From NCBI RefSeq assembly GCF_035083965.1, contig NC_089729.1, positions 12,139,464 through 12,203,463 of the forward strand: DNA of 64,000 bases, read 5' to 3'. Both the position numbers and the translations under genes were made by a program. Of this stretch, positions 26,544 to 59,622 are shown piece by piece (the first letter of the stretch is position 1; each line of letters begins with the position of its first letter). A model generated the notes under the pieces. The model saw only the letters and a program-made list of their open reading frames with translations, ran no database searches and was not told the DNA's origin. This DNA comes from Branchiostoma lanceolatum. Its lineage: Eukaryota; Chordata; Leptocardii; Amphioxiformes; Branchiostomatidae.

Positions 26544-26599
26544 GAAGTCTGTGTGGACAGCTAAGCTGCCGGGAAGACGATAGTAGTGGACCTTAAGTA

Positions 26600-27394
26600 G
26601 CGGTGCTCTTAAATTCTAAGGTTTGTAACGGCGTACAAGGACCGCTATCTAGCCGCTACTTTTACACATTCTGTACCACATCTGTGACTATATACGGCTG
26701 TCTAAACTATCGTAGAGGAAGGATGACAACTCGGAAAATCGTAGAGAAGCCTGCGGGCCACTTGTGGCGTCCCTCCCCCCAGGCACCGTTCAGGGGGCAA
26801 ACTCCAAATCTTCAACTTCACTTCCAAAACATCAAAACTCGCGATGTTGTCAAACGCCGTCCGGAAACAATACTTTGTCGGGAGCCTCGCCAAAAATTCC
26901 ACAGAGAGAGGTCAACGCCACGGGAAGCACGGTTAGACAGTTGGCGAGTTCCCCTACTTCCTGCCGAGGAGTGTGTGACGGCAGACCCGTTGACAAATGT
27001 GGAAAACAGATCCGATCGGGTGAAAAGAGACACTGATGTGATATGCAGCGGCCATGTTGAAATCTACCCAATCATCAGTAACAACTCCGTCCTGACCAAT
27101 CAGCGAGCAGGACTGGAAAGTTGTTACAACACAAGTAGCCAATCAGAGGTGTTCAATGGTTTGAATCTACCACTATACGTATAGGTATACAATATCTTAT
27201 TGATACGGTGAAGAATTATCATCAAAAGCCTACTTTATTCTAATAAATAGTAATGACTTAAGCAATATATTTATCATCGTTGTCATGTATACTATTTTCA
27301 TTTATCTTTTTGCTATTTCTATTTTAAGGTTTTATTTTGAAGCAGACCCCGTTATTTTAGTGTACTCGTCCATTTCCGGACATTGGGCAGCAAG
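26600..27394. promoter_or_regulatory. Divergent promoter between the Rab11-FIP-like gene and DDX47
   Basis: About 850 bp separate the two start codons. Two CCAAT-box words (ccaatcag) lie near 27098 and 27139. On the minus strand near 27058 the sequence AACATGGCCGC, and on the plus strand at 27391 AAGATGGC, resemble YY1 sites of the kind found at housekeeping start sites. A 193-codon plus-strand open frame across 26603-27184 shows no family signature and is treated as chance within the minus-strand 5' leader. Confidence 0.5.
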
Positions 27395-34013: not shown

Positions 34014-35137
34014 CACTTTTAATGAACTTCTTTCTATTCTTATTACCTGTACTAACGTTGTGAAAGTAATGATTTAGTGCAAAAGTTGTATTCATTATGT
34101 CATATAGCATAATCTCAGATTGTAGTAACTCTAAGGTGTTTTATTTAGCAATTCAGACTGTACAAAACAGTTAAACTGAAACTTTTGGAATCATTAACAG
34201 GTGAATTTCAAGAGAAGGGGCTGAAATCAATACCTGTATGGTAAAAGGAAGAAGCACATCTTTGTGTTGCATATCAGATCACAGGTCATGGAAAGGTTTT
34301 GACATGTACTGTACATTTCCTTAAGTTTCTGCAGTCTGAATAAATAATACTAGTACAGCATTGCAGCATTTTCTTTTGTACACTACATGAGGATATGGGA
34401 TAGCTTTAAGTGTGTTGTTGGGATTCGGAAATATAGCTTCAATCTGTCATATGTGCATGTATAAAAGGATTTTCCATGAAAAGACTTTCATCAACGGTTA
34501 AATGCAAAAGTTTACCGTTCAGTAGAATTTCTATATTGCCTGTAATTGTTTTAAAGCTTCCAGCAAACACTAAAATCAAACATTACCATTTTACATTAAG
34601 GTACAATGGAGGGTTACTTACAATTTAAAAGGTGTATTTTCCTTCTGAATGACCTAGAGATTGAATACCAAATAACTAATGACAGATCACAGTCCACAAC
34701 AAGGCCAACAACTCGAATTGTCAAACGATTACTGCATTTCAGATTTTCAGTAGTCTCTTTGAAATTTTGGTCCTTGTGTGTGTTCATAGCCTGGTATCCA
34801 AACCTGTTGCAGCTGCCAACTAACTCTGTTTCCTCCTATTTACAAATATTTGCTTGGATACTAGCTTGGATACCAGACTAGTCATTTCAAGCCTAGGCCT
34901 GTCTACAATAAAACAACAGCCTACAGTGACCTTTTTATGGTCAAACACACACACGTATCACGTGACTTACCTTATTCAAACAAACATATGACTTGTGCCC
35001 ATCAAACATGTCCATACATGTCTAAGTATGACGTAATTGTAAGACCTACTCCTATAACGCAGTAGTATTGTTCAACCCACGTTCTAACAGAACCGTGTTC
35101 TTTACGTTTCTGAAAAAATTGACAACTTCTTACCGCC
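34014..35137. other. DDX47 3' region and upstream region of the first TNF ligand gene
   Basis: The region holds the DDX47 3' UTR with an AATAAA at 34339-34344, and then the upstream sequence of the TNF gene, where a CACGTG E-box (tatcacgtgac, near 34958) and a CRE-like tgacgtaa (near 35029) can be seen. No coding exon was recognised. Confidence 0.5.
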
Positions 35138-37658
35138 ATGCCTCGCATGGGCCGCCAGGACAGCGAGTGTTCCACCGCCCCGCTGGATCCCTACATGTCC
35201 AAAACCGACTACAGAGAGCCGTCTCGTGCCTTTAGCAGTGTCTGTGTGTCCACCGTCTGTGTGGTGTTGCTGTTGTTGTCCCTCGTTGCCGCCGTTTGGT
35301 TAGTTTTTACGTGGCTGTCGTTCAGTCAGCAAATCGCAGAACTTAAACTTAAGTACGAAAAAGTCGAAGAACGGCGGGGATGGGAGACGAACAACGAGAA
35401 TGTTTCAGCTCTTGTAGACGAGGTAAGGTTTACCGCAATGTACTTGCTATTATTTCTAAGTTACCTGTGACCATAAGAAGACAAGTGTTTTGTTTGAAAT
35501 AACGTGACCTTAAACACAAAGTTCTTTTAAAATCATAGTTTGCCGTGATGATTTTGCGTTGTGAAAAAAATCAAGGCTGTTCAGTCATAGATGAAAAGAT
35601 ACTGCTTACACTTTAAACTTGTCAGATGAGTCTTAAATTTACGAAAATCTTTCTGGTATGAAGATGTGTGCATCATTAAATGCATTGTTTTGCGACGGAA
35701 AAGAGGATTTAATAGATTTCTTTTTTTTCTAAGCACGGAATGGCTTTAGGAATACATGCGGATTCATAACGACAGAATGGTTCGCTCCAAAGGTCACGTT
35801 GGCGGGGAATTTTCTTTGTCATCATTGACGCAGTACAGTTCGACGAAACATTATGCAAAATCATCTTGCAAATTAAATGCACAAAAACGAGAAGTTGACT
35901 CTACTGAATTAGCTTAGTTTATCACTTTTGTCTATCTAAGTATGTATGTATGTATGTTTAAACTATGTACTGTAAATATTGTACTGTTATGTCACATACA
36001 TATCAGTCATTTTAGACGACCTGCACCTAGTCCTTCGGCGCACGAATGTACAATAAAGGTATTCCATTAGCGCAGGAAAGTTTTGCGTCGTTCACATTGA
36101 TCTGAAACTTTTACAATTACTCTACACGAAATAATTTTACGATGAAATAAAATCACATTAGCACATTTTGAAAAAAAGACATTTGAAAGTAATCTATATC
36201 TTTCACCGAAACAGACGAAGCAACTAATTCTTTAACTTGTCATTCCCTAGGCGCTACAGAAGTATCTTGCCGAGCGGGACCATGTTGAAGTCGGGCCGCC
36301 CTTACCGAGCGGCTGGGTCAGCGGGCCTGACAGACCCATGGCTCATCTCACAGGCAACCCGGAACCCAACCACTATCCTAAACGTGCGTTTCGCTAGAAA
36401 TGAAGACGATTTGAGCAAAGTATCACTGATGATGGTAGGGCATGAAAGAATCCAATAGATATACGACATACAAATAAATCACACAAATGTGCAAGTTTTA
36501 TACATGTCAGAAAGTAGTTGGTTCCAAAGAAAGACAGAATTTCTTTGATCATCTTTTTTAAAGCATGCAAACATCAGAGTTAGACATGCAAAGTTTGTGT
36601 TTGACAAGTCGCTCGATATAAACAACCAATCACTGCCATCGTGCCTGTGACTCAAAGGTATAGAAATAGATATATCTATCTTTATATAGATATCCAACTA
36701 CTCTCTGTTTTACTTGTCTTACAGGAGAAGAGAACGAGGTTATCAAGATCAGGACATGGGAGACCGAGCACGGTCTGGCCACTCTAGCTAACGGTATGGA
36801 GTACAACCGTGGGAACATAATCATCCCTGCAGACGGACTGTACTACATCTACTCACAGTTATCATACAGGTAACGGTGGTTAGACTAGCGGACATGAGAT
36901 CGGGAGGTCAGGGGTTCGATTCCTGGCGTTCCTAGTTAGACGTTGTGTCCTTGAGAAAATCACTTTACACCGCTTTCCTCGAAAACTGTGTGCATGTCTG
37001 ACTTCGGTTGTGGAAGTAACGGGTGGTAGAGGAGCGGATATGAGATCGAGGTCACGGGTTTAACTCCTGGCGTTCCAAGCTAGATGTTGTGTCCTTGGGA
37101 AAGGCACTTTATTTGAGTAAAAACGTTCCTTAAGCTTGTCTACTTGACACGACTTTCCTCGTAAAAATAGGTAAGTCAGACTTCGGTTGGGGAGGTAAAC
37201 GGCAATGTAGGAGATTGATGGACTCCGCCTTCCGATGCCGTGCCGTAGACACAGTATATACAAACCCACTGCCCCTGCATCCCCCAATAGGCCAAGGGAA
37301 TACATTTGCCTTTACCTGACTTTTCTTCATTTCTGCTTAGCCTCGTTATTAATCTTAAACATTTTCGTCCTACAGGTTCAGAAACGACTTACCTGAAGAT
37401 GTCAATAAGGAGGAAAGAATCTTCCAGATCATCCACTACACCTACAAGAGAAACTCTTACCCAGAGCCCAAACAGATCATGAAAACGGCCAAGAGCACGT
37501 GCTGGTCCAAGCGGGTTGAGTTCGGGCTGTACACGTCGTTTCAGGGCGGCGTGTTTCAGCTAGAGAAGGGCGACAGAATCTGGGTCTCCGTGTCGAACGC
37601 TCCTCTGATCTGCTTTGACGAAACGTCCAGCTTCTTTGGGGCATTCATGTTGTATTGA
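35138..37658 (+). CDS. TRAIL/TNFSF10-like TNF ligand, copy A
   Basis: Four exons (35138-35422, 36251-36383, 36725-36869, 37376-37658) join in phases 0, 1 and 2 to give 281 aa. The product is a type II membrane protein: cytoplasmic residues 1-33, one transmembrane helix at about 34-60, a charged stalk, and a TNF homology domain from AHLTGNP (126) to the C-terminus. Strand signatures include LYYIYSQLSY (178-187), KSTCWSK (227-233), FGLYTSFQGGVF and SSFFGAFM. 'SYPEP...MK...S.CWSK.' and the ending closely follow human TRAIL. Cys230 sits in the same context as the zinc-binding cysteine of the TRAIL trimer, and the length equals human TRAIL. The family binds death-domain or decoy TNF receptors as trimers. 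The gene lies directly upstream of a tandem paralogue. Intron 3 is packed with SINE sequence. The assignment to the TRAIL-like branch is by recalled motif similarity; orthology to one vertebrate ligand is not claimed. Confidence 0.88.
36873..37320 (+). mobile_element. tRNA-derived SINE sequences in intron 3 of TNF ligand copy A
   Basis: Two tRNA-like heads occur about 150 bp apart, each with an A-box-like start (ggtggttaga / ggtggtagag) and a B box (ggttcgattcc / ggtttaactcc). Both are followed by the word 'gttgtgtccttg' and a SINE body (gactttcctcgtaaaa, cttcggttggggaggtaaa). Matching bodies occur at 48.1 and 59.1 kb. Confidence 0.75.
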
Positions 37659-38686
37659 TGTACCAAAAATTGTAGTTAGTAATATGTATTGTTATCAGCT
37701 ACTCTGTTATATATAAAATATGTATGAAATTTATAAAGGAACATAATTACGGATGGCTTAACATGCCAAGGGCATGAATTATGAAAAATACGTTGACAGA
37801 TTCATCACTTTTTAAGGAAAACTCTCCTTTTATACTTTGTCTAGCAAAAAAAGTTCAAACTGCCTCAACGGCCAACCAATGGGACGACGCTGTAGAATTA
37901 AAGTGTCTTGTCATGTACCTATTGTAGCTCCTGTAAGCGTTCTGACGAAATAAGTTCACTACGTCATTTGCTGTAATGCCACAAACATTTTTTTTGCATA
38001 TCTGTTCACATTTTGCAGCTCATACCAATGATCCTTTCTCATACGGATTTAACTATGTAACGAATTATCTAAACTACATAGAATTACAAGGCGTACGAAA
38101 GTTTGTTACTGGTATTCATTTTTAATGTAATGTTCATTTATAAGAACAAAAATAAACTTTCTTTTAATTCAAACAACTTTTTATTCGTATGTATATCTGA
38201 ACTATGTTGCTCTAGGTGAATGTACCTGATATGAAGAAATTCAGTCATTCATTCATTCGTTCATTCTTTCAAAAGTCATTGAACAGTAATATAAAGCTTG
38301 CCGAATATTTGTTGGTTTTGTGTTCCAGACCATGAAAAAAAGCCCTCTACCAGCACACTGCGTCACAAATCAAACTAAACATGTTCCTACAAGTATAGGT
38401 GTGATTGATTTGTATACGCATTGTCCTATTTTCATACCATAGCAGTCACACTGTAAGTTACGTTTGCTGACAGTGTTATTGTTATTGCCCTCTGCAACCA
38501 AAACACGTCACTAACGTGATTGGTAGGTTAAAGTTTGTTTATAGGTGAACCTTGCAACCAGTGTATATTTGCTCAACACCCCACTAAGTTAAACATTGCA
38601 TCAGATTGTACCGAACGTAGGCGCAGGTAGAACTCGCTCTCGACAGGCCCATATTTTCCCCACCGAAAACGGACAGCAAGGCAAGA
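37659..38686. other. Spacer between the two TNF ligand genes
   Basis: The spacer contains the 3' UTR of copy A, an AATAAA near 38151 and the upstream region of copy B. No coding exon was recognised. Confidence 0.5.
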
Positions 38687-41059
38687 ATGGCAGCACGCAG
38701 TTCAAAGCGTCAAGACAGCGAGTGTTCCACCGCTCCTCTCGATGAGGAGTTCCTCGAGCCGAAGGCCTGTAACGGCCACTGCACGCTCGTGGTGTTGTGC
38801 TCCGTCCTGACGGTTTTCTGCGCGGGCCTGTTTGCCGGACTGGCCGTGATGTGGGTGTACTTCGGCCAGCAGCTTGACCAGCTGAGGAGCGCCTACGAGA
38901 AGCTGGACCTCCCAGGACACGGCGGTGACCGCTGGAACATCACTGCTACCGTGGATGAGGTACGGAGGTTTGCAAAAGTTGTTTTTAAGAGCCGGTATCA
39001 TTGTAGAAACTACTAGTCAAAGTCCGACGTGTCAGCGGTCTGTTTTGTTTACAAGGTGAGCATTATACAATGTAATAGAGCAGCGTGGAATTTACAGCCG
39101 TTTTCGTCTTGTTGCAAAAGAAACTCACCAAACCTTTGAATTGCCGAAATTTCAATGCCTCAACTCTTTACGAAAACAAGTTGAAAACTGTTTCACTTTC
39201 ACAAAGGTGAGAATTTTCTTACGTGTCTTTACTGTTTCCCTGTTACAATCTGAGACAAAGTCATTCCCAACTTTTTAAAAGGACATGATCATGATATACT
39301 CATTCATACACTTAATCAAAAAGAAAAATGTGAGTCATTCCTAGATCCTATAAACGAATTGATTTCATATTTCATACCTGTAGATAAACAATAGATATTG
39401 CCCACTAATGGCGTATGGTGGTACAAGGGTCGACAAGTTGTTTTTCAGTGAGAGTAAAGTCCGCTTACATAAGCCTTCTGCTGAGATTGTTGCATCAAAA
39501 ATAGCACGATCTCCATTCACGGCAATTTGTTGGGTAGTTTGATCAAAGTAAAAGGGGTTGCGTGATTCTTTCTACCATCGATTTAGTTTTGAGTAACATA
39601 ATTTGACATTGGAAGCGCACTTTAACCTTCTCCCTGCTGCCTAACTCTGTAACCAGTATGGAATTGGGTGTCAAACGGGTACTGCAGTGTGCTAAAGGTT
39701 AAAGAAGCGCCATTCTCTCGTATCTTTCAATCTTCAGTACGACTAATAACCAGTCTTTTCAATTTCTTTTCTGAACTGTGAAAAGAATAGTGCGAAATCA
39801 AGATGTACCAGGTGTTGGAACGAAATAAATAATGAACGAAGATGTTTAACTGACTTAAAAAGGTGAATGTTTTCTTTAAGCGCACTAAGTGTTGAATGGC
39901 AATGATCAGAAAGAGACCTGAAAGAAATGTGGCCATCACATAGCTTTGACTATCATGCTTGGCATAATCATTAATTAAGGATTAACCAAAAAATTCCATT
40001 TTTCCGATCCACCAGGCTGTGAGACTGCTCCTGGAGGAGGACGACCAGAAAGCGTCCCCGGACCGAGCGCAGGTCGGCCCACTCATCCCGGCCGGCTGGT
40101 CCCCTGGCTCCAGGAAACCCATGGCGCACCTTACGGGAAACCCGCGACACAACTTAAGGAGTGAGTCACAGTTACGATGTTCAACTGGAAGACTTTTTTC
40201 CTGAACGATTTATTTGTTTGTATTGCATACCCGGTAAACCGCCCCTTGGCGTTACACACCAGGTTCGTACTGAAGAGTACAAGCTGCATACTAGTACCTG
40301 GACAGATTATTGCAGCATATTGTTGATCAAATGAAATAGACCGGACCATTTAACGTTTTCATAAACAAGGCAAATAGTAGGTTACGTAGGTCGAGTATCC
40401 TAACCAGCATCAAAATGTAAAGGAATTAGATCTCTGCATCTTTTAAAGAGATTTTCATCAAGTATTACAATCTGTAAATGTTACCATATGTGTCTGCTTT
40501 TCTTTTGCCTGAAACACTAACACTTTCTTGGACCATTCACATTCAACTGGCAGCTAAATTGATGTAACATCAACAAATCTTTCAAATACCACATGTTTTT
40601 TATATGAAAGTAAACTTCTCTTTTTCTAAAACAGAACACCACGGAGAAGTGAAACTGCGGTCCTGGGAGAGTGAACAAGGCCTGGCGACCCTGGCGAACG
40701 GGATGAAGTACAGAGGGGGAAACCTCGTTATTCCAACAGATGGACTCTACTACATCTACTCACAACTGTCATATAGGTTCCTCAACGAAAATCCAGAAGA
40801 AAATACCGACAAAGAAGCTAACACCTTTCAGCTCATACATTACACGTATAAACAGTCTTCTTATCCGGAACCTCAGCTTATCATGAAAAGCTCCCGAAGC
40901 ACGTGCTGGTCAAAGAGAACAGAGTTTGGACTCTACACGTCTTTTCAGGGCGGGGTGTTCAGGCTAGAGAAAGGGGACAAGGTTTCGGTTTCGGTCTCAA
41001 ACGCGCAGATGATCTCCTTTGATGAGTCCTCTACCTTCTTCGGTGCTTTTATGATTTGA
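38687..41059 (+). CDS. TRAIL/TNFSF10-like TNF ligand, copy B
   Basis: Three exons (38687-38959, 40016-40160, 40635-41059; phases 0 and 1) give 280 aa. The layout is a type II membrane protein with its cytoplasmic tail at 1-31, a transmembrane helix at about 32-58, a stalk, and a TNF homology domain from AHLTGNP (128) onward. LYYIYSQLSY, SSYPEP, STCWSK with Cys230 in the zinc-ligand context, YTSFQGGVF and STFFGAFMI are all present. An N-glycosylation site (NIT) lies in the stalk. Compared with copy A the two THD exons are fused, so intron 3 is absent. The cytoplasmic box RQDSECSTAPLD is identical to that in copy A although the rest of exon 1 has diverged. Same orientation and shared intron phases show a tandem duplication. 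Confidence 0.88.
40232..40290 (-). mobile_element. SINE tail fragment
   Basis: The word 'ccggtaaaccgccccttggc' and the following 'gttacacaccag' match, inverted, the SINE end seen at 48.40-48.44 kb and the fragments at 29.9 and 62.28 kb. It lies in an intron of TNF ligand copy B. Confidence 0.55.
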
Positions 41060-45122: not shown

Positions 45123-47821
45123 CTACGGTACGTAAGGACGGTATGCGTAATCAAACTTCGTGCTCTTTATGTCTGAGAAACTCGTGTTAGTGTTCTGGTT
45201 GTTGTTCTCTGGCTCGTACTCTCGCACTTGTATGATGGGGTTCGTCTTGTTGACCGTTTTCCGGTACTTCACACAGAAGCAAATAGCGACGATCGTCATG
45301 ATGAGAAGGAGGCCAGCCAAGACGCCCATCACCACGATATAGACAAGGTATCTGTCGCCGGCCGTGGGCGCGTTTGTTGTTGAGCTTGGTGTTGTCGTTG
45401 TAACAAATGTGGTTGTGGTTGGTGTAGTTGTTGTAACTGTTGTTACAACCGTAGTGGGCTTGGTTGTAGTCGTCGGTGCAAGGGTTGTAGGCACTAACTC
45501 GACGTTACAGAGGTCTGTTCCGCAACATTGCGAGCCGGCTGCAATTCATGAGAAAGGAATATTGAAATATGCAAAAATAGAGGGTTCAAAATCATCTTTA
45601 TTCTGTATGAAATGAATAATATACATACACTCTAAGAACAATAGGTCAGCCCTTTGTCTCATGACTTCTCGTCAGGATGGCACAAAGCAAAAAAGTCATC
45701 GGACGTTTCAGGGCGTTCTCCACAAAATATTACATATAAAAAGGTCCATAGCGTACTATTTGATTACAAACTTCTTTTTAATGCTATTAGTTTACGAGTT
45801 GAGATACTTACTCGCGCTGGTAGAGTTCTGTATTGATGCGCAGACCGAAGAGTTGGCACACCTTCTCTCGATGACCCTTAGCCAACTTAGTTCCACCAGC
45901 ACCGACTGAAAAAGGGCAAACGTAAACACTAAGAACATGTCTGATTTAGGCAGTAGACGTAATAATCAAGCTACATAGCAGATATCGCTGTTTAAAAAAA
46001 TCATATCCGTGACATATATTCTTGAAGAATATGACCCTTACTGTGTACAAATAGGTAAATATATTAAAGAATGTTTAGACCTTAGGACTAGTAGCATAAG
46101 TCATACGTCAGACTCAATATGTTTATCTATTCATATACCTGTACTAGGTTAATCAATTTGTAGCGATTTGTTCATTTGTATGTATAGTTATAGAAGATCT
46201 TACGCAAGACGCTGTGCTTTCTTGTGTCAATAAAGATTTCGTATGACGTAACACGGATGGCATTTGTTCACGGAACACCGTGTATTTATCAGTGACATAA
46301 AGTTGTCAAAATCGATCGTGTGTCAATCAAATGCAAGATAAGGCTGTAAGATTTAAGTTGTAGAGGGAAAAGATAATAATAAAACCTTTGCCTCAACACA
46401 TCTTTACAGTAGCTGCCATGGAGTATGCTTTGCCTTTTTCACACAGTGTTTACTTTGTAATTCACCTTTCAAAAGTAGCCTTTGGCCTAGAAAAAGAAGG
46501 TGTTGCTGTTCTGTCTTGTTCCGCTAGGGTAAACAAAAGTTCCCGAATGGGACTGTTTTTCTTCCCTTTCATGTGAAGTTGCGAATCAACATAGTGACGC
46601 ACCGCGGCGCCGTTCCGCGGCTGGTCTTCAATACTCAGGAACTGTTGCTTTAGGCCGTTTTGTTGTGTTCCATTGTTATTGTTATTTCTGACGTGGCTAC
46701 GACATTGCTGTTTCAAAGTCGCACAAAAATCACCCTCATATCTGCTATTAAAGTTCCTATACCTTCCTTGTATTGAAGATCTGAATTAGCGAGAAAGAAA
46801 AATAGAAATCTAGAGAAGTTTCTAAAAGCGTTTTTGTTTAGGAAATATTTACAATATATCATGAATACTTCGATTTTGGTACCATGAAATTGCTCCTATG
46901 ACGATTTCAACACATTTTACAGGCGCCATTTTGTTCGCTCGTATAGTCCTCTTTGCCAAAACCAGACATTACCATTTCTGTTTGTAGTATGTTTTTCAAA
47001 GGTGGTTTCTCAAATACTCCCGTGCACAGTTTATACAAAACCCGCTTAAACTTCCTATATTTCAAAAGCTAGCTAGCAACCGCAAGTTGGCAGGTGTATT
47101 TACACGCATGACTGAACGCACACCTTACACACCTGTCGAAAGCTTACTTTCACTTTCCCCTATCTACTTGACTCACCTGGCAGGTGTCTTCGGACGGAAG
47201 ACATGTCTGGTTGCTGGCGGAGGTAGGGTCATATAGGCAGCTGGTGAAATCAGTGGAATTGGAGCCCCCCTCTAGGGCATTACAGGTGTAGCATGTCAAT
47301 GCGCTGGTGGGATCGACTGGAACAAACGTTTCTCTTTTTATTGAAATGAAGACATTTTAAACATCATCGGGCAAGTAGATGAAGATCAAGACATTTTCTG
47401 ACTGCTGTCGCGAATTTAAACGTCCTTGAAGTCACTTTTGCGGCTTTCGCTAATTTCCTTTCTTGAATACAATTGTTGGAAAGTGGCACAAGAACGCGAA
47501 ATTTTAAACCTATCTACTGCACAGTTGACATTTGCTTTTTCGTCTGCTTTTTTTCCTTAACAAGTGTGGCTCTCTCTTAATTACAAGCCTCTCCCTTCTA
47601 CAAAATGTAGTGGCCAGCTTGAACGTTTTGTATCCACCATTTCACATACACATCCCTCCTAGCGCGCTCAAACAAACAACCTTTTGCCAGAACGAAAACA
47701 TTCCAACAAGTTGGAATGTCTCAAAAGTTAGCACAACAACAGTACAACCACAAAAACACAACGAAAATTTCTCACCGATAAACACAACCAATAAGATACA
47801 CCAGCCAGCAGAAAATGCCAT
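45123..47821 (-). CDS. Single-pass membrane protein with one LU (Ly6/uPAR) domain
   Basis: Four exons (47821-47776, 47316-47177, 45905-45812, 45538-45123) join in phases 1, 0 and 1 and give 231 aa. Residues 1-21 are a signal peptide (CILLVVFI core, cleavage likely after TSA). The domain has exactly ten cysteines (24, 27, 42, 54, 61, 78, 84, 98, 99, 104), starting with TCYTC and ending with CCGTDLCN, the hallmark of the three-finger LU fold. Then come a Thr-rich stalk (about 110-152), a transmembrane helix (about 158-182) and a 49-residue cytoplasmic tail with several tyrosines (YEPE, DYAYRPY). Most family members are GPI-anchored, whereas this one has a true transmembrane helix and tail. The N-terminal secretory exon ending in phase 1 is usual for the family. 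Partner and role are unknown; adhesion or receptor modulation is plausible. Potential N-glycosylation sites are NST (35), NQT (51), NSS (80) and NST (89). Confidence 0.85.
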
Positions 47822-49783: not shown

Positions 49784-51267
49784 CTATTGACTTTCCGCAC
49801 CCGAGGTATGCCTCTGAAGTTGTACATAGACGGTTTTCGTGGCGGTTAGGAAGAACTGATACCACTCTAACAACCCGAGAGTCGAGTGATCTAACTCATA
49901 CTTAGTCCATAGCCGCAGTTGACTTGGAGAAGCTGTGGTAGCTTCCGATGATGCTTCAATTACATGCCCAGCCTGCAAGGAAATGTACAAGTTACGCAAG
50001 GGCGTTGTACAACAATACATCATTCTGTCCCTGGCACAAACCGTTGTTGGTAACTTAACAGGTTGTCCCAAAATGACAGCGGTTCGCGCGATATACGTGA
50101 TCTACAGCATCGTATCATAAGCTCCATCTGGCCTTACATGGCCTTAGGAAGCGAAAAGAGGTTGAAGATGTACTTAGAATATACATTAGTCTTAGTTTGT
50201 AGGTGTAGGAAGATATCACATTCTTATATCACTGTACTTGTACGCAGCTTCAAGCATAAACGTACAATAAAGGTCATCCATTCATTATGAGAACAAAGTC
50301 CAACCTACCAGCGAGTGTACGTTCCACTGCAGACTCTGCGTGAACGTCTGAACGGGCACACTGGGGTTGTACTGTTGGTACTGATCCGGGATGGCCGCGA
50401 TGCTCGCGGTGAAGTTTTGCAGGCCGGCGTGCACTCCTGTCAGGAAGTCCTCAAAACTCTGGAAAAAAAAAAGACGCCAGACAGAAATCCTGTTAGACTC
50501 TACGGTCATAACCAGCGTTTTGATTATAGTCGTTTAGAAGAGCGAAATTGTGCGTAGATCCTTGGCCATATTGACGGATTCAGGAAGTAGAAGTTTTACT
50601 TTGGACAGAGCAAAAGGGGTATTTCCCCACCCACGATCCCTGCACTTGGAACACAGCTCGGTTCTACCCCCTTACCATAAGGTGGCGACCGCTTAGGAAC
50701 TAAGATTAGTAGTTCAAACAAATGTCATTGATATAGAATAGTATTTTTTTTTACTTTTGTTGTCTTTCTAAACATACTTTATTCAATATTTCACCACCGG
50801 GATATAGAGAGTATAGTACATTCCCGAAGTCGTTTAGACGAGCGATGGCAAAAACAACCATAAAAGGAGGGGGAATAAAGAAGTGATCAAAGTCTAAGTG
50901 ACGTTCTTGCAATTTCTCATTTTTTTCATAACCAATTTTTTTTTCCGTTAATTCTTTTCCCTGGCAGACATCAGTTCAGTGTACTTTTCTCTTCGTGACC
51001 AGATCCCCCCCCCCACCATACGTCACACAGTGACGTCATGGTAATGGCAAATAAACTTACCCCTGAACAGAGGCTGTCGGCGTCCTCGGCCTGCGTCACG
51101 ACGCGGTAGTTAGGGTCTTTAAAAAGCACGATTCGCTGGAAAACGTCATAAAAAGTTACGTCATTTGTTACGTCGACTTTGCAATGCACAGCAAAGTCTT
51201 TTGATTCTGTGTCGTTTGTCAAAGCACTCCTTTCAGTCCTTTGTTGTTGTTTTTTTACTTCGCCCCA

Positions 51268-51319
<52 letters not shown>

Positions 51320-52942
51320 TGTGTGTATGTGCTCATGTGTGCATGTATGTGTGTACACGTGTGTATGTGTGTGTCTGTGTCTGTGCGTGTGTGTTAACTT
51401 TTTTTTTGTTTCTGACATACCTGAATAAAGTAAAGTCTGCCATTTCTGAATGCCTTGTTTAAGAGTTTGCAATAACGTTACCTTTTTTGCAGACTTTTTT
51501 CAACGTTTAAATGGCAGCGTATGCTGACGGCTTTATAATGCAAAAAAAAAAACAGGCAACAAAGAGACATACCATGGTTTGTATGCTTCTCTTGAGTAAA
51601 GACAATAGGCGGTTGATCAGCACGACGCCCTTCCCCAAAAGTTCGGCACAAGGGTGCTGTATTTCCGCGCTGTCTTCAGAACGGGAGATCTGAGTACAGG
51701 CCATGGTGACGTCAGAGCTAGTCTGCAAATAAAGTTGGGATCTGAGGATTACGACTTTTATATCGGTATGCCTGTACTTGCCTACAATGGCAATAAAGGT
51801 TATCGATAATTAATCTATCGTCAATGCCCACAATGCAGCACCCAAAGAAATGCGTTATTCTGGTTTAAATGAGTACCTAGCTTCAGATAGGGACGTTCTC
51901 TTGGATGGGACGTAAAGCCGGGGTCCCAGTGTTTGAGGAGAGCCATACCAAACTTATTGAAAAGAGTAGGGGTCCATCCCGGTCTCATTAGTGGATCAAA
52001 CCTTACACAGCATATACTTACCGGTTTACCGGTTATGCGAAAGAAACACACTACCGACTAAACAGCTATGCGATGCCCTGCTGGTCTCATACATGTATGG
52101 GGTAGAGTCCGTAGCCAAAAAATAAACGGCTGCATGAAGGTGTGTTTATGTCGGTGGGAAATGTCCTTTTAGCAAGCCCAGCTGATCTCAAGCGTCATGA
52201 AAGCTTGTTTGTAACTGAAGAAATAAGCTGGCAGCCGCGCACGAGGTCGGACGTGCACAACCCGGCATTGTGAGTGATGCGGCCGTGCGCTTACAGCTGG
52301 AAAGTGCCTTTTTGGGGGGTGTAGCTAAGTGCAGTTTGTAACTGCCATTAAAGAAGATTGTATGGAGTGAAAATGTTGGCAATTTGTTTCTAGGGTAAAT
52401 GTTCTCAACATAAAACGAATAACATTGGTGCATTTTCTATAGCTTCATTACGATCGCGCCCATGTAAAACACGTATCATAACATGTAAGCCTATATGGGA
52501 CGAAAAAGCTCATGAATGAGACCTTAAGATTTCTTTAATCTTTGATATATCATTGATCAGCCAATAATGTTTTTTTGTCATTCTCATACTTTGACCGCTG
52601 TAAATGCCTTCAAGTTCCTGTGGTTTTAATTTTCGCGGTAGGGAGAAAATGAAGTGTTCGCGGTGGTTTTCTGCATATTACTTCGTTTCAATCGCATAAA
52701 AAACTGCTATTGTGCGACAAAGTTGCAGAAAAAAGTTATTTCTGGTCCATCGTGAAAATAAAATAAAAACAGAGATAAGGTAACCACAAGTTACTCACAG
52801 ACGCAGGCGTTGGCTGGGTGTTCTCGCGGTCTCCGTGCGGGGCTGTGCTGGACACCTCGGTGGAGCGCAGCGGTGCCGGCGTCACCGGTAGCAGCACGTC
52901 GCAGCCGAGTAGAAGTGTCACTGCTAGTAACGAAGCCAGCAT
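49784..52942 (-). CDS. Candidate secreted four-helix-bundle cytokine, copy 1
   Basis: Five exons (52942-52799, 51722-51573, 51135-51061, 50458-50309, 49972-49784) code for 48+50+25+50+62 = 235 aa. All introns are GT-AG and phase 0. The start ATG is the one conserved in the tandem copy and opens a clear signal peptide (MLASLLAVTLLLGC). Exon 2 ends in a long amphipathic helix (AELLGKGVVLINRLLSLLKR, about 74-103), exon 3 has NYRVVTQ and a Cys (121), exon 4 holds a helix (FEDFLTGVHAGLQNFTASIA, with NFT glycosylation at 138) and another after a Pro-rich break, and exon 5 ends in a strong helix (LGLLEWYQFFLTATKTVYVQ, about 205-224). Cysteines in the mature chain are 57, 73 and 121. Length, secretion, helix spacing and the five-exon phase 0 layout match IL-6/G-CSF/growth-hormone-type cytokines. 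Primary sequence alone does not assign a family, and a different secreted helical protein remains possible. Confidence 0.68.
51271..51393. repeat. (TG)n microsatellite in intron 2 of candidate cytokine copy 1
   Basis: A perfect TG run at 51271-51318 is followed by imperfect TG/CA-rich sequence. A related, more degraded TG tract lies in the same intron of copy 2. Confidence 0.95.
51871..52045 (+). mobile_element. SINE body fragment in intron 1 of candidate cytokine copy 1
   Basis: It shares 'gggacgt.ctcttggatggg', 'gagagccat/cacc' and 'gaaaagagtagg.gtccatcc' with the SINE at 48070-48440 but lacks the tRNA-like head. Confidence 0.7.
52598..52735. mobile_element. Truncated TGTAAATGC foldback element
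   Basis: The left end 'ctgtaaatgccttcaagttc' and the internal 'gttcgcggtggttttctgca' match the element family at 184-372 and 53411-53631; the right terminal repeat is missing. Confidence 0.65.
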
Positions 52943-53026
52943 GGTGTCTCTCTGTACTCGCACAGGTGGCAGCGTTCAAGAGGGCCGTCTGGGGAAAGTG
53001 CTGGCACTGAGAGGGAAAGTGCTCCA

Positions 53027-53057
53027 TTTTATACTCTAAAACTTTTATTTCCTTGAA
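53027..53057 (-). promoter_or_regulatory. TATA box and STAT-type element of candidate cytokine copy 1
   Basis: On the minus strand, GTATAAAA (53027-53034) lies 85-92 bp upstream of the ATG. The palindromic TTCN3GAA word TTCCTTGAA (53049-53057, palindromic frame so readable on either strand) lies about 15 bp further upstream. The same arrangement occurs before copy 2. Confidence 0.6.
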
Positions 53058-53410
53058 GTTTTATTTCTTCGTGCTGGGACGCGATAGGACGACGTCTGAC
53101 TCAAGAACCAACCCACGTAAAAGTTTATTTTTGTGTACGAGTACGTACGTACAGGCGGCGCGAAGAAAGTCTTATCTTACGTGTAATGGTAGTCGTGGGT
53201 GGGATCGCGCCATGTATAATGTCCAGATCTAGATTCCAAGTTTGATTTCCTGGAAAGGAGAAGATTCATTTCCTATCTGCAGTTGACTCAACGGTCAAGG
53301 GAGAAGTCAGCGACAAAAATAAAATTTGTTTCACCTCTGACGTTATCAATTAAATATGATCCATGATGTAAAAATAAATTAGAAAGACAACAAAACTCAC
53401 AAAATACAAT

Positions 53411-53631
53411 TACTGTAAATGCATCTAAGTTCGCGTGGTTTTTATTTCGCGCTAAGGGGAAAACGGAGTGTTTGCGGTGGTTTTTAGTTTGCAGCAGTGC
53501 TATAGTCACATAGTGCTACAGTATTGGACAGAAATGTTCGCGGTGGTCTTATGGCCGCGATGAAATGGTCGCCGCTATAGCGCTAAAACCGCGAACATAA
53601 AACCCCCGCGAACATTGCTGCATGTACTGTA
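53411..53631. mobile_element. MITE-like element with TACTGTAAATGC terminal repeats
   Basis: The left end is TACTGTAAATGC and the right end GCATGTACTGTA. The inside is rich in 'gcggtggtttt' and its complement 'aaaaccgcgaacataaaa'. It is the same family as 184-372. Confidence 0.8.
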
Positions 53632-54550
53632 TTCTATATAAATGACATCTGTTAGATCTACTACGTTTAGTTCCTCAGCGGACGCCATCTTATGGAAAGA
53701 GGGTATAACTGAGTTGTGCCCGAATTGCAGAAATGTGGGTGGTGAAAACGCCCCATTTGCTCTGTCCAAAGTACAACTTCTATTTCCTGAAGCTGTCACA
53801 TTCCAACAGGATGACGTCAAGTCCAAGGCCATGAACCTGCGCACCATTTCCTCACAGATGTGTAAAGGCTTAATGAGCTTCCGAGTTGCCGGGTGTGACG
53901 TATGAAGTATACGTCATAATCAAGTTTATTGCCAATCCATGCCCGTAGGCTAATTGCAAGTTTGACAACAATTACTGACAATGCACAGACACGAAATGAA
54001 ATATAAGGCATATATGTCATACACGCGTCGAAGATTAGATAAACTACGTAATACGCGTAAAAAGCGATGTTTGGGCCCTATCACGCCTGTGTATATATTC
54101 CAGTGCATATGAGTTGCATCAACATTTTTGGGGGTTTAAGTAAAGTTTGCGGGGAAGAAGTTGTTTTCTACTTTGACCCACCGTTGTGCAGCCTACTTAT
54201 CGTATCGAACCAAATGAATCACTTCTTCGGCTACAAACTTCCCCCATAACAAAAACATGCTAATACGCAACTCACGTCTTATTTTCGGAGTCAATTGCAG
54301 GGCAAAGTCATCCATTTTGGCAAGATTTCCAAAATACACATATATCTGTCCTCCCCAGCAGAAAACTGGGCCTTTCTGATCAAACTTTGTCCAGGAAAAA
54401 AAAATATTTAGAACATAAGTCGAGAATTCAATGACTCAATGGCCAGCCCGTGCCTCAGACAAACTCAAAGCACCCTCACCGGATGCACCACCATGCCGGT
54501 GTCAGGCCAAATAATCCTCAAAGGTACTAGTATAAAGGGGGGCGTGACAT

Positions 54551-54763
54551 TCTCACTGGACCCGCGACACGTTGGCGACCTCACTGCAACACTGCAACCG
54601 AGCAAAGACGCGCTAAACGAATTTTACCGATGAACAACGAATATTTTTACGCTTTCTTGACTTTTTAGAAGTACTTACAATTTATTTCCACTGTAAAGTC
54701 AAAGGTAACATAAATCCAATTTAGGACGCAGCGAGGTCGCCAGCGTGTCGCGGGTCCAGTGAG
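54551..54763. mobile_element. Inverted repeat element with GC-rich arms
   Basis: The arm 'tcactggacccgcgacacgt' is mirrored by 'gtgtcgcgggtccagtga' about 200 bp later, and 'tggcgacctc' by 'gaggtcgcca'. A diverged single arm ('cgccagcgtgccgcgggcac') lies at about 57313-57335. Confidence 0.75.
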
Positions 54764-55738
54764 AGGGGGGCTTTTTAGCCCACTTCTCTCCTCTTACTTC
54801 CTGTATATGTCTTTTTTTATATTTCACTCCAAACTGCAGGTATATGAGTGAACTATATTGTTTGTTGATCCTGACGTTTCTTTTCCTTCTCCTCCTGTCA
54901 AATCTTCATTCATCTCTGTCATCTCTGATATTTGGCACAAAGTTAAAGTGGGTCAATATCTCTGCCTTTATACATGCCTTCAAATGATTTTATAATTTTT
55001 TCCATCTTAGACCAAACATGCACGTTCCGGAAGGTTGCATTCTTGAATGGGGGGGGGGGGGCAAGTTTTTAAAACTCCATTTGTACTGGGTGATCTTAGA
55101 ATAGTTCTTGTTTGGGCCGTAGCAATTTTGGACTGGCCCATTTTACATGTGAATGCCACTACAATAGTCCATTCTTGAATGGGGGATTTTTATAAAATTC
55201 AATTTTGGACTGGGGTGATTATAGGAAAAGTCTAACTTTCAAGTGGAATAGTCCACTGTGCATGGGGGTTCCCGTCCATTCGTGCATAGGGGAAAGCTTC
55301 ATTCGGACTAGAATGCCTTTTGAATGCTCTTGAAAGGTCGCAGAACATAGCATTTATCTACGACCCCCTTGGTCAATAGTAGTTCGGGTATAAAGTAGTG
55401 CGTCACGGTACTTGAAAAGCTGTTCTGGCTGATAGCATCAGAGGGATACGTCAGCTTTGAGAGTGTATCATTTGGACTACGATGTTGTTGGGTCGGTGGG
55501 AATTTGCGCTTGGATACTAGTACTGTTTTGCGTCGGTTGCAGTTATCATGAACTCCGCTGGGCGTCGTATAAAAGTGGATTTTAAAAGAGCAAGAGCAGA
55601 CAAACTTTGGCCCATTTTTACAGAGTCTGCAGATTGTACCCGGAACGTAAACATTTTCAATTCTTGCACCTTGTTTATGCAATCCACTATGAGTTTTAGT
55701 CGAAGCTTCTCATGTTTGGGTACTTAGTAATAGGTAGT

Positions 55739-56020
55739 GTACCCTGGGGGCCAGGCACCGTATATCGGCTAGCCACCAAGCGCCGCACGCGCGCCCAAGC
55801 TTTCCCGGGCCACCCTCCCGCTGTGCCCCGAAGACCGACCCCGCCCCACTCTCCGCTGTAAACCCAAGATCTGCTAGCGGAGTAATCGGATAGCGGAGTT
55901 TGGGTCTGAGCGGAGAGTGGGGCGGGGTCAGTCTTCTGGGGGCAGCGGGAGGGTGGGCCGTGAAAGCTTGGGCGCGCGTGCGGGGATCCGATTACGGTGC
56001 CTGGACTCCCAGGGTATAGG
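55739..56020. mobile_element. Large GC-rich foldback element
   Basis: Arms of more than 100 bp fold back on each other: 'accctgggggccaggcaccg' with 'cggtgcctggactcccaggg', 'cgcgcgcccaagctttcccg' with 'cgtgaaagcttgggcgcgcg', and 'ccgccccactctccgctgta' with 'gcggagagtggggcgg'. It lies in the 3' flank of candidate cytokine copy 2. Confidence 0.85.
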
Positions 56021-56327
56021 TAGTGCACCGGGACAAAGTTCTAGCATTACTTCGGTCTCTATGACAACTAGAGCCATTAAGTATAAATAAAGGCACAAAC
56101 AAACAAATACAGCTACACATCTCACCCAGCCAGTCTCAATAATTTAATGCAAAAAATATGGATATTCCATAGAAATCTCCCTAATGTAAATATATATCAA
56201 TACACTTTCAGTGGCCCATAGTTACATTCCACGTATCATATACATATTTTGAAAGTTTAAAATTCAAGTATATAAGATAGATTTTATAAAGTTCCTGTAT
56301 GTTTGATAAACAGGATGAATAAAAATA

Positions 56328-56344
56328 TAAATATCTACATAAAT
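56328..56344 (-). promoter_or_regulatory. Two ATTTA words in the 3' flank of copy 2
   Basis: Two ATTTA pentamers on the minus strand, about 130-150 nt after the stop codon. The region is very AT-rich, so the match may be chance. Confidence 0.25.
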
Positions 56345-56351
56345 GGTTTAT

Positions 56352-56372
56352 CTATATATACATATTATATAT

Positions 56373-56408
<36 letters not shown>
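56352..56408. repeat. (AT)n microsatellite
   Basis: A near-perfect AT dinucleotide run just downstream of the stop codon side of candidate cytokine copy 2. Confidence 0.9.
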
Positions 56409-56410
<2 letters not shown>

Positions 56411-56476
56411 AAATATCGGTGCGCCATAGTACTAATCACGAAAATATAAATAGTCTGCGTATAACACGACAAGAGT

Positions 56477-59400
56477 CTATTGACTTTCCGCAGCTGAGGT
56501 TTGCCTCTGAAGTTGTACATAGACGGTTTTTGTGGCGTTTAGGAAGAACTGATACCACTCTAACAGCTCGAGAGTCGAGCGCTTTAATTCATAAGTAGTT
56601 ACAGTTGTCCATAGGTGCAATTGACTAGGAGAAGTCGTGGGAGATTCCAACGTTGTCTCTATGATATGTCCAGCCTGAAACGAAATATTTACACAATTAA
56701 GAGGATTATACCAAAATACAGCATTCTATCGCCTGTGCAGTACCAACTAATGCTGGTAACTTATGCTAAGATCACAATTCTCAACCCGCGGCCCGATGTA
56801 AAGCCAAATCCTTGAGCTGCCAAATGCGTGAGAGGTCAGCTACTACACCTGAGCACGACACTTTTGGGGAGATACCAGTAAACGTGAGAGGAGCACCTGT
56901 GTGGAGTTAGGGCTGGGGTCGATGGTGGCAGGGCAAGATTTACAGGTAGAGGTTAAGATTAGGGCTAGGGTTATGAATAGGATTAGGGAAGAGGTTTTGG
57001 GCTAGAGTTAGAGTTAGGGTTATGGTTAGACTTATGATAGAAAGTTACCACGTCCCACGAATGCTTTCAACTTAGAGTACTCCTCTCACGTATACTGTAA
57101 TCCCCCCCCCCCAAAGTGTCGTGCTTAGGTGCAGTAGCTGACCTTTCACGTATTTGGCAAGCTCAGAAATTTGGCTTGATACCAGCCGATCGAATTGAAT
57201 TTCATCGACAAAAAAGAAAAATCTTTCAGTGTGCTGTGTGTGTTTTGTTGTCGTTTTGAATGATATTCCCATTACAAAGTGAAGGGTAAGACAAATCCAG
57301 TTTAGGACCCAGCTACGCCGCCAGCGTGCCGCGGGCACAGTGAGAGGGAGGCCTAAGGTCTTCAAATGACATTTCAATGATCTTTTAATGTCCTCAACTA
57401 AAAGATTTTGATTTTTTTGTCGATCATAGGTTGCCCGGTTTTCGCCCGTTTAATGCTTAGGTCTCAATTGGAAAAGGGGCCCGCCGGCTAGTTCACGGGC
57501 TGCTTTTTGGGCCCGGCCGGGCACCGCGGTGACTTTAATTCGGACTTAAAGCCAACGCGGTAACACATAATCGTGCAGGCACCGGCAGTCCACCGGGACG
57601 AAATTTCTGGCTTCGCGGCCCGACCGGAACTAAACCCCCGGCATTACGAGCACTGGCGCAATTGGGACCAAAGCATAGAATGGGGGACTGGGAGAAGTTT
57701 ATGGAAGAAAAGTCCAGCCTACCAAGGTGCGAACGTTCAATTGCAGACTCTCGGTGGAAGCCAGGATGTTCTGTCTAAGCGGCACGCTGAAGTCCGAGAC
57801 CCGCCCGGACTGGTCCTGGATAGCCGCGAGCTGCGCGGTGAAGTTCTGCAGGTAGGCGTACACTCTTGTCAGGAAGGTTTCAAAAGTCTGTGAGAAAAAG
57901 ACGCGAGAAAAAAATCACAGTTTTCAATCTCACATCCACCAGGATGCAGCAAATATGAAACATTCGCGAAGTCGTTTGCAAGAGCGAATGGGAAAAAAAT
58001 TACAATTAAAATAACAGCAGGAACACAGCATTGACGAAAGATGAAGCAATATTGTTGCGAGTTTTCTTTCGTATCTTTTTCAATAAGTCTTTTCCCTGTG
58101 AGAATTTCAAGCATTAGTACGGTGCACCTTTCCGCCCCTTCGTCACACAGTGACGTCATGGTAATGCCAAATAAACTTACCCCTGAACAGAGGCTGTCAG
58201 AGTCCTCGTCCTGCGTCACGACGCGGTAGTTGAGATCTTGAAAACTATCGTTTCGCTGTAAAAAAAAAGGCATAAACTTTATCATTAAAAGAAACATAGG
58301 TATGCAATTCGTAAAACAACTGGTCACCTTTTCAACGCGACGCGAAGAAAAGTACTTTTAATTAGGCCTTTACGAAAATACGAAGTGAAGTAATGATTTG
58401 AAAGTGTCAATCTGTGTGCCACTCTCTCTCTCCCTCTGACTCGAGTGTGTGTGTGTCTTTGTGTGTCCGTTTGTTTGCTTGCGTGTGTGTGTATCTGTGC
58501 ATGCGTGTTAATGCATGTGTGTGAGTGCGTGTGTGTACATGTATGTGTGTGTTTCTGACCTACGTTAATGCTGTGAAGTCTGCCATCTTCGATTGCCTTG
58601 TTTATACAATTATAAAAAAGTTTTCATTACCTATTTTGTAAGCATTTCTGACTTTTTGAAGATCAGCGTATTTAGCAGAAATAACATGGCAAGTGCCTGC
58701 AATGCACTAACAACAAAAAGTTACTTTTGTACATAAGTAGATTTAAATCTTAACGATCATGACCAAACGAAATCATCATTACTTACCATGGTTTGTAGAC
58801 TGTCTCCGACTCTATCGAGTAAGCGGTAGATCAGTACTGTGCCTTCCCGCACCAGTTCAGCACGAGGGTGGTCTCCAGGCGAGCCGTCTTCAGAACGGGA
58901 GGTCAGGTTGAGTGTCCGGGTACAGGCCGTTCTTGAAGTAACCCCAGATGTTGTCTGCAGTCGATGACAGGATTTTTTAAATACTTATACAGATATGGCC
59001 TCCGTAGGTCAATATTTACAATGATAAAATCCCAATTAACATCACCCAATACTAGCTGAATGGCGTCGTGTTGGTGTGACGGTTAGGTGTTCGGCACAGA
59101 ACCCAGTGGTCCTGGGTTCGAGTCCTTAAATTTGACGTGTCTCTGATACTGTGCCCTTGGGAAAGGCACTTAACACGACTTTCCTCACTCCACGCAGGTG
59201 CAAAAATGAGTACCTGGCTTCGAATTTGGTTGGGGAGGTAAAAGGTGGTGGAACGAGAAAAACTCCGCTGTTGTAGGAAAATATGAAATGGTCAGAAATA
59301 TTTTCTAACCTATCTCGAAAAAAAAAACAACAAAAAAACACGTTACTCACAGACGCAGACGTGGGCTCGAAGTTCTCGCGGTCTCCGTGCGGGGCTGTGC

Positions 59401-59494
59401 TGGACACCTCGGCGGAGCGCAGCGGTGCCGGCGTCACCGGTAGCAGCACGTCGCAGCCGAGTAGAAGTGTCACTGCTAGTAGCAAAGCCAGCAT
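56477..59494 (-). CDS. Candidate secreted four-helix-bundle cytokine, copy 2
   Basis: Five exons (59494-59351, 58954-58787, 58255-58181, 57887-57723, 56674-56477) code for 48+56+25+55+65 = 249 aa, again with GT-AG, phase 0 introns throughout. The signal exon is nearly identical to copy 1 (43 of 48 residues by eye), as is the last helix (LELLEWYQFFLNATKTVYVQ). Exons 2 and 4, carrying the presumed helix A and the middle helices, have diverged and differ in length by 6 and 5 codons. Cys59 and Cys127 match Cys57 and Cys121 of copy 1, while the third cysteine of copy 1 (73) is Arg here. Glycosylation sites are NLT (64), NFT (144) and NAT (230); only NFT is shared. Same orientation, homologous 5' and 3' flanks and the same splice sites show a tandem duplication. 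The open frames of both copies are intact, which argues for two working genes. Confidence 0.68.
56826..57155. mobile_element. Foldback element with telomere-like filling, in intron 4 of candidate cytokine copy 2
   Basis: The left arm 'aggtcagctactacacctga' plus 'gcacgacacttttgggg' is mirrored by 'ccccaaagtgtcgtgc' and 'aggtgcagtagctgacct'; inner arms 'gtgagaggagc' and 'actcctctcac' also pair. The centre holds degenerate TTAGGG-like words (attagggctagggtta, gttagagttagggtta). Confidence 0.8.
58440..58560. repeat. Imperfect (TG)n tract in intron 2 of candidate cytokine copy 2
   Basis: Interrupted TG-rich sequence at the position corresponding to the perfect TG run of copy 1. Confidence 0.85.
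59056..59260 (+). mobile_element. tRNA-derived SINE in intron 1 of candidate cytokine copy 2
   Basis: A tRNA-like head with an A-box-like 'gtgtgacggttaggtg' and a B box 'gggttcgagtcc' is followed by 'gtgcccttgggaaaggcact', 'aacacgactttcctcact' and 'ggttggggaggtaaaa', the same body as in the TNF ligand intron. Confidence 0.8.
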
Positions 59495-59576: not shown

Positions 59577-59622
59577 TTTTATAACTACACTGACGCAGAG
59601 GAAAACGTTTTATTTCCGTGAA
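59577..59622 (-). promoter_or_regulatory. TATA box and STAT-type element of candidate cytokine copy 2
   Basis: On the minus strand TATAAAA (59577-59583) lies about 83-89 bp before the ATG, and the TTCN3GAA word TTCCGTGAA (plus-strand reading, 59614-59622) lies about 30 bp further upstream. The middle three bases differ from copy 1 while the half-sites are kept. Confidence 0.6.

Follow-up and report, generated by a model that had tools for sequence, protein, structure and literature searches.

Within a 64-kb stretch of the genome of the lancelet Branchiostoma lanceolatum (contig NC_089729.1; hereafter the window, in whose positions all coordinates are given), we examined two head-to-tail genes on the minus strand, running from the start codon of gene 2 at 59494 down to the stop codon of gene 1 at 49784. 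We consider it probable, at roughly 70%, that they encode secreted class I helical cytokines of the long-chain type, with an IL-6-like ancestry in the IL-6/IL-11/G-CSF branch. The more specific proposal, that the two stand as pro-orthologues to the IL-6/IL-11/G-CSF group of vertebrates, that they have kept the intron between exons 4 and 5 and use a gp130/Domeless-type receptor, and that the ligand predates the vertebrates, stands in our judgement at about even odds. Confidence in both was lowered slightly by the weaker match to the IL6 family model once consensus sequences were made by machine, and by a low probability in profile alignment. If the reading is true, ligands of IL-6 type were present before vertebrates appeared, and they were missed because drift takes them below BLAST thresholds.

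Gene structure and coding evidence

Gene 2 (59494-56477) has five coding exons for 249 amino acids, and gene 1 (52942-49784) five for 235. Exon 1 (gene 1, 52799-52942; gene 2, 59351-59494; like all exons below, on the minus strand) encodes the signal peptide and a linker in 48 codons. Exon 2 of gene 2 (58787-58954) carries an invariant cysteine, Cys59, followed by the segment predicted as helix A (residues 78-108 of the model; the exon itself ends at 104), and exon 2 of gene 1 (51573-51722) has predicted helix A at its end. The AB loop, including the other invariant cysteine (Cys121 in gene 1, Cys127 in gene 2), is encoded by exon 3 (51061-51135; 58181-58255), predicted helices B and C together by exon 4 (50309-50458; 57723-57887), and the CD loop, predicted helix D and the stop codon by exon 5 (49784-49972; 56477-56674). 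For gene 1, the helices in exons 2 and 4 were placed by alignment to AlphaFold models of low confidence. Each of the eight introns has a GT donor and an AG acceptor, and since every exon length is divisible by three, each gene has four phase-0 introns.

In line with the preliminary description, which had proposed two intact five-exon genes for secreted proteins with few cysteines, both products begin with the hydrophobic stretch MLA(S/L)LLAVTLLLGC, judged by eye to be a signal peptide, and in its mature part the gene 2 product has two cysteines (residues 59 and 127), that of gene 1 three (57, 73 and 121). Two mature-protein cysteines are invariant in all six known sequences of the family. The two proteins are 70% identical, and over exons 2-5 the ratio of non-synonymous to synonymous substitution (dN/dS) between the genes is 0.55 (bootstrap 0.37-0.85), with its minimum, 0.37, in the helix-D exon 5; by this measure exons 2-5 are under purifying selection.

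Synonymous divergence (dS) is uneven along the pair. The paralogues are nearly identical in exon 1 (dS = 0.05) and much closer there than in exons 2, 4 and 5 (0.36-0.62; exons 2 and 4, 0.52 and 0.62), a difference that may reflect gene conversion of recent date at the 5′ end. Within the window there is no third copy, the remaining tblastn matches having expectation values (E) of at least 0.07.

Three protein searches, covering 5.8 billion proteins and scoring 1202, at least 7997 and 3674 candidates, returned four relatives among the matches listed, all of them unnamed Branchiostoma proteins and none from another genus; because these searches require shared 5-residue words, distant relatives may be missed. 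In P0002 (B. floridae x B. japonicum, 235 amino acids) and P0003 (B. belcheri, 218 amino acids) all five exons are joined as in the predicted genes. P0001 (B. lanceolatum, Hypp5234; 191 amino acids) is 90% identical to gene 2, and its public gene model is truncated, running into intron 4 (ending in VGWTFLP) and lacking the helix-D exon. The public model of P0004 (B. floridae; 119 amino acids) is likewise truncated, ending soon after exon 3, apparently by way of intron 3. On this taxonomic sampling, the family has so far been seen only in lancelets. Taken together, the splice pattern, the exon joins of the orthologues and the purifying selection indicate real genes and not chance open reading frames, and the pair reads as tandem paralogues that evolve fast but under constraint.

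Relation to IL-6 and IL-11

Among the 24736 models of Pfam, gene 2 matches IL11 (PF07400) best, with E = 0.013 for the whole protein and 0.0088 for its core, pairing residues 132-242, which take in helices B-D, with model positions 63-169 of 170. The best match of P0002 is the same model, over helix D (E = 0.022 whole, 0.013 core); the IL11 matches run to the model end (position 169 of 170) within helix D, and IL11 is thus best for two of the six members of the family alignment. A hand-made consensus of the four full-length members has the IL6/G-CSF/MGF model as its best match (E = 0.018; 0.011 for exons 4-5; 0.035 for exon 4 alone), and two of three machine-made consensus sequences place IL11 first (E = 0.025 and 0.009). 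As far as such profile matches go, the IL11 match holds however the consensus is built, and the IL6 match is less robust. As a yardstick, human IL-6 itself matches IL11 at E = 0.0019, a strength that the lancelet matches come near although they stay below cut-off, IL23 at 0.0097 and GCSF at 0.03. For human IL-11, only its own model is listed. Reversed-sequence controls gave cytokine matches in none of five cases but reached similar E-values elsewhere (LRR_8 at 0.013), so that it is the identity of the matched families, not the E-value, that carries weight.

Profile alignment pointed in the same direction. When a profile of four lancelet sequences was aligned by hhalign with 19 human proteins, four of them non-cytokines, IL-6 ranked first, with a score of 25.1 (E = 0.0043) over 104 columns at 22% identity. 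The match covers IL-6 residues 109-212 and stays collinear from helix B through helix D, right up to the C-terminal end. The runners-up were CLCF1 (17.7) and G-CSF (17.4), and the non-cytokines scored 10.4-14.1; 16 reversed controls reached at most 17.1, and block-shuffled lancelet alignments reached 25.07 in one of 400. The register of helix D differs by about 4 residues between hhalign and the Pfam match of the hand-made consensus. These comparisons show, for helices B-D, a weak but recurrent sequence relation of the lancelet pair to both IL-6 and IL-11. They do not bear out the likeness to CLCF1 and CNTF that the preliminary description had drawn from helix D: the CLCF1 match is in a non-collinear register and CNTF scores 11.9, and we reject the comparison with these two in particular. 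The short G-CSF match is not used as support either, as it would put the lancelet junction about 10 residues from that of G-CSF.

The hhalign alignment knows nothing of introns, and the exon boundaries can be read against it. The coding exons of human IL6 measure 19, 191, 114, 147 and 168 bases (639 in sum, or 212 codons and the stop), with the last junctions after residues 70, 108 and 157; these positions, like the other vertebrate exon positions compared below, are given as background. The lancelet exon 4/5 junction falls at IL-6 157|158 in hhalign, and does so as well in five of five MAFFT settings with human and mouse IL-6, settings that overlap and are not independent. The Pfam match of exon 4 of the hand-made consensus, taken alone, extrapolates the junction to IL-6 157, and for one machine-made consensus the match with the IL6 model, if ungapped, puts it at 160.

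Long-chain cytokine genes typically have helix A ending exon 2, a loop in exon 3, helices B and C in exon 4 and helix D in exon 5, with introns 2-4 in phase 0. The lancelet layout agrees with this, predicted helix A ending about with exon 2, the loop forming exon 3, B and C lying in exon 4 and D in exon 5, with the helices taken from low-confidence models. The AlphaFold model of gene 2 has four long helices (residues 78-108, 131-156, 165-186 and 216-247), and that of P0003 has helices at 53-81, 106-131, 137-158 and 180-217 plus a short one at 169-177; in both, a long AB link, a short BC link and a long CD link follow one another as in up-up-down-down cytokines. The four helix-prone segments noted earlier thus recur in two models of low confidence. 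With the two invariant cysteines before helix A and before helix B, the ends that bear them would adjoin only if A and B are parallel, which would fit cytokine topology. The sizes of the products (235 and 249 amino acids) and their hydrophobic start also fit secreted long-chain class I cytokines of about 180-250 amino acids. IL6 is described with five exons and four introns in human, chicken, pufferfish and zebrafish, with helix A in exon 2 (PMC7284502).

Several results weigh against an IL-6-like ancestry. The hhalign probability for IL-6 is only 8%, and with mouse IL-6 added the alignment is unchanged but the score falls to 15.4, so that the statistic is fragile. The IL6 and IL11 Pfam matches amount to 12.2-16.1 bits, none of them above the curated cut-offs (25.8 bits for IL11; 27 bits for IL6, PF00489), and the pair is accordingly not filed under either family. 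Gene 1, P0001 and P0004 have no Pfam match and P0003 matches unrelated models only; neither exons 4-5 of gene 1 (no cytokine match) nor exon 5 of the hand-made consensus taken alone (no match) helps. The third machine-made consensus puts the unrelated SesA (0.07) ahead of IL11 (0.14), and the IL6 model appears in one of the three (E = 0.12), coming first only for the hand-made consensus. Unrelated families follow closely behind IL11, namely TPR_ESP1 at 0.024 for the gene 2 core and A_thal_3526 at 0.055 for the P0002 core. Searches of PDB sequences with gene 2 and with family profiles, the latter to E = 10, found no cytokine.

The remaining adverse points concern introns and fold. The alignments do not fix the two preceding junctions: relative to IL6, hhalign places that between exons 3 and 4 at a distance of 2 residues and MAFFT at offsets of -3 to +5, while for exons 2 and 3 the offsets spread from -3 to +23, since the AB region cannot be aligned. 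In the lancelet genes intron 1 follows codon 48 in phase 0, unlike that of IL6, which lies inside the signal peptide in phase 1. The AlphaFold models are of low confidence (mean predicted local distance difference test, pLDDT, 37.7 for gene 2 and 40.2 for P0003; predicted template modelling score about 0.3), and the modelled packing superposes best on designed bundles, making the tertiary arrangement unreliable. What the preliminary description had proposed, an IL-6-type long-chain class I cytokine, is favoured by the IL11/IL6 matches, the first rank of IL-6 in hhalign and the exon 4/5 junction, while the up-up-down-down fold is left unconfirmed by the low pLDDT of both models, in which four helices with long-short-long links were recovered. 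In its strict sense the earlier statement that the proteins belong to no named family was accurate: none of the members scores above the cut-off of a Pfam or NCBIfam model, NCBIfam yielding nothing useful.

An unlikely alternative is a class I cytokine of another branch, kin to amphioxus GHl or to EPO/TPO and not specifically IL-6-like. Such a gene would not be out of place, since GHl is a published amphioxus type I cytokine and several further divergent type I cytokine-related genes are reported from the genome (PMC9010856), and in an ungapped comparison of gene 2 with eight human cytokines GH1 came second (22) to IL-6 (30). In hhalign, however, GH1 (15.1), PRL (12.4), EPO (11.1) and TPO (12.0) score at control level, and no hormone or EPO Pfam model was found for any member. 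GHl, compared through two peptides translated from its quantitative PCR primers only (PMC5376476), agrees with the family in at best 3 or 4 of 7-8 residues. An ungapped C-terminal comparison with IL-6, which gave the best diagonal with 15 identities in 67, was itself set aside as evidence, block shuffles equalling its score in 27 of 1200 cases.

It is quite unlikely, in our estimate, that the genes encode a secreted helical protein peculiar to lancelets and with another function (gamete, mucosal or antimicrobial), its likeness to IL-6 having arisen by chance on an amphipathic, compositionally similar background. Every sequence match is sub-threshold, random families equal the E-values with reversed sequences and come close behind with forward ones, neither AlphaFold model has a confident fold, and fast evolution is also typical of gamete, mucosal and antimicrobial proteins. 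Chance would nevertheless have had to pick IL11 repeatedly and IL6 once from all Pfam models, with the IL11 matches reaching the model end in helix D; it would also have had to give the best hhalign match a shared exon 4/5 junction and the genes the exon-to-helix layout of long-chain cytokines. A class II helical cytokine (interferon or IL-10 type) would suit the phase-0 first intron better than IL6 with its phase-1 intron, but IL-10 genes carry helix A in exon 1, unlike the lancelet genes, with helix A in exon 2 and B and C together in exon 4. Teleost type I interferon genes do have four phase-0 introns (PMC4929537), as do both lancelet genes, but with no class II Pfam model for any member and with hhalign scores at control level (IL-10 12.6, IFNB1 16.3) this last alternative seems very improbable.

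Proposed mechanism, promoters and neighbouring genes

Under the IL-6-like reading, the mature protein would fold as an up-up-down-down four-helix bundle, in which a disulfide between the two invariant cysteines would tie the parallel helices A and B at one end. The ligand would then cross-link gp130/Domeless-type receptor chains on target cells, a pairing that we infer, and the cross-linking would switch on JAK and STAT. A gp130-like receptor is reported in the sea squirt (PMC1963337), a GHR-like receptor in amphioxus (PMC9010856), and an amphioxus IL6R is mentioned in a published tree (PMC13203501). In IL-6 itself, Trp157 (mature numbering) contacts domain 1 of gp130 at site III (PMC7378365). 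The lancelet residue aligned to this tryptophan is the tyrosine of a YEL motif, invariant in four of four full-length members; the tryptophan is not conserved.

The promoters would be compatible with an inducible secreted ligand, which is the simplest account. Both genes have a conserved TATA-like box on the minus strand, TATAAAA at 53027-53033 in gene 1 (85 bases upstream of the ATG) and its counterpart at 59577-59583 in gene 2 (83 bases upstream). Some 15-30 bases further upstream, at aligned places, lies a STAT-type palindrome TTCN3GAA (53049-53057 in gene 1; 59614-59622 in gene 2), and gene 1 has a second at 53247-53255, which gives two per 500 bases for gene 1 (0.14-0.27 expected) and one for gene 2 (0.14 expected). 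The conservation of TTCN3GAA beside both TATA boxes suggests that the JAK/STAT pathway may feed back on both genes through these elements. The AP-1-type motif TGACTCA occurs twice in the 500 bases upstream of gene 1 (53097-53103 and 53284-53290; 0.07-0.12 expected) and not at all in the 1000 bases upstream of gene 2, where one NF-kB-type pattern was found at 60331 (0.11-0.45 expected). No NF-kB-type pattern lies upstream of gene 1, and no interferon-stimulated response element upstream of either gene. These motif counts are only suggestive, the motifs having been picked after reading the sequence. AU-rich elements 3′ of the stop codons were discarded as a feature, since their numbers do not exceed what chance would give: gene 1 has 2 where 2.1 would be expected, and gene 2 has 6 where 3.2 would be (P = 0.10).

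Elsewhere in the window, a TNF-superfamily ligand domain is encoded on the plus strand at 40568-41056 (Pfam TNF, E = 8e-37), about 9 kb from the pair, which makes a TNF-type and the candidate IL-6-like ligand genes neighbours. Two plus-strand open reading frames at 38621-39013 and 35123-35467, both with DSECSTAPLD, resemble cytoplasmic/transmembrane exons of the TNF-type gene or of a paralogue. On the minus strand, 45129-45545 is a C-terminal exon, likely of a Ly6/uPAR-like membrane protein, with a threonine-rich stalk, a transmembrane segment and a cytoplasmic tail; its CCGTDLCN motif is one that we take to be Ly6/uPAR-like, and its 12 weak Pfam matches, mostly to membrane proteins, are all under cut-off. 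Further away, a DEAD-box helicase exon lies on the plus strand at 28539-28874 (Pfam DEAD, E = 6e-17), and on the minus strand 26274-26615 is an exon with a weak EF-hand match (E = 2.5e-4, under cut-off).

Comparison with known cytokine systems

According to a 2026 BLAST survey of metazoans, cephalochordates included, IL-6 family cytokines are found only in vertebrates, whereas IL6R-like receptors, JAK and STAT are older (PMC13203501). This raises the question of which ligands the older receptors use in invertebrate deuterostomes. Its thresholds were an E-value of up to 1e-5 and an identity of at least 30%, and in the comparisons made here the lancelet family falls below them. If the IL-6-like reading is true, drift would explain the failure of similarity searches, orthologues being just 52% (P0003, B. 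belcheri) and 62% (P0002, B. floridae-type) identical to gene 2, and with a ligand from lancelets that shares the exon layout of IL-6, the origin of the family could be put to a direct test. That lancelets have type I cytokines is no new idea, since GHl and further divergent related genes have been reported (PMC9010856), and the present family could be among the latter. In the mostly open-access literature on lancelet IL-6-type ligands, gp130 and class I cytokines, we found no report of it.

Drosophila Upd proteins, ligands of the IL6R/gp130-like receptor Domeless that activate JAK/STAT, offer an invertebrate precedent (PMC13203501). The pair as proposed would resemble them as invertebrate ligands of a gp130-like receptor, a likeness by description only; Upd is named from insects only in that survey. 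Amphioxus GHl, reported as a secreted type I helical cytokine (PMC9010856), shares with the pair secretion, a size of about 200 amino acids and the genus Branchiostoma, and differs in its 208 amino acids from the 218-249 of the family. IL-11 is like the pair in that gene 2, P0002 and two of three machine-made consensus sequences all match its Pfam model best, and unlike it in that these matches reach 14.6-16.1 bits against a cut-off of 25.8 and that human IL-11 scores 15.3 in hhalign, over 22 columns and out of register.

With IL-6 the comparison is more detailed. The lancelet AB-loop exon has 25 codons as opposed to 38 in IL6, one invariant cysteine pair stands against two disulfides in IL-6, and the site III tryptophan is replaced by tyrosine. 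The exon 4/5 junction, on the other hand, is alike in aligned residue and phase, and helix A, as predicted for the pair, lies in exon 2, B and C in exon 4 and D in exon 5 in both. Vertebrate IL-6 and the lancelet pair further share five coding exons with four introns (PMC7284502) and collinear helices B-D, alignable over 104 columns at 22% identity.

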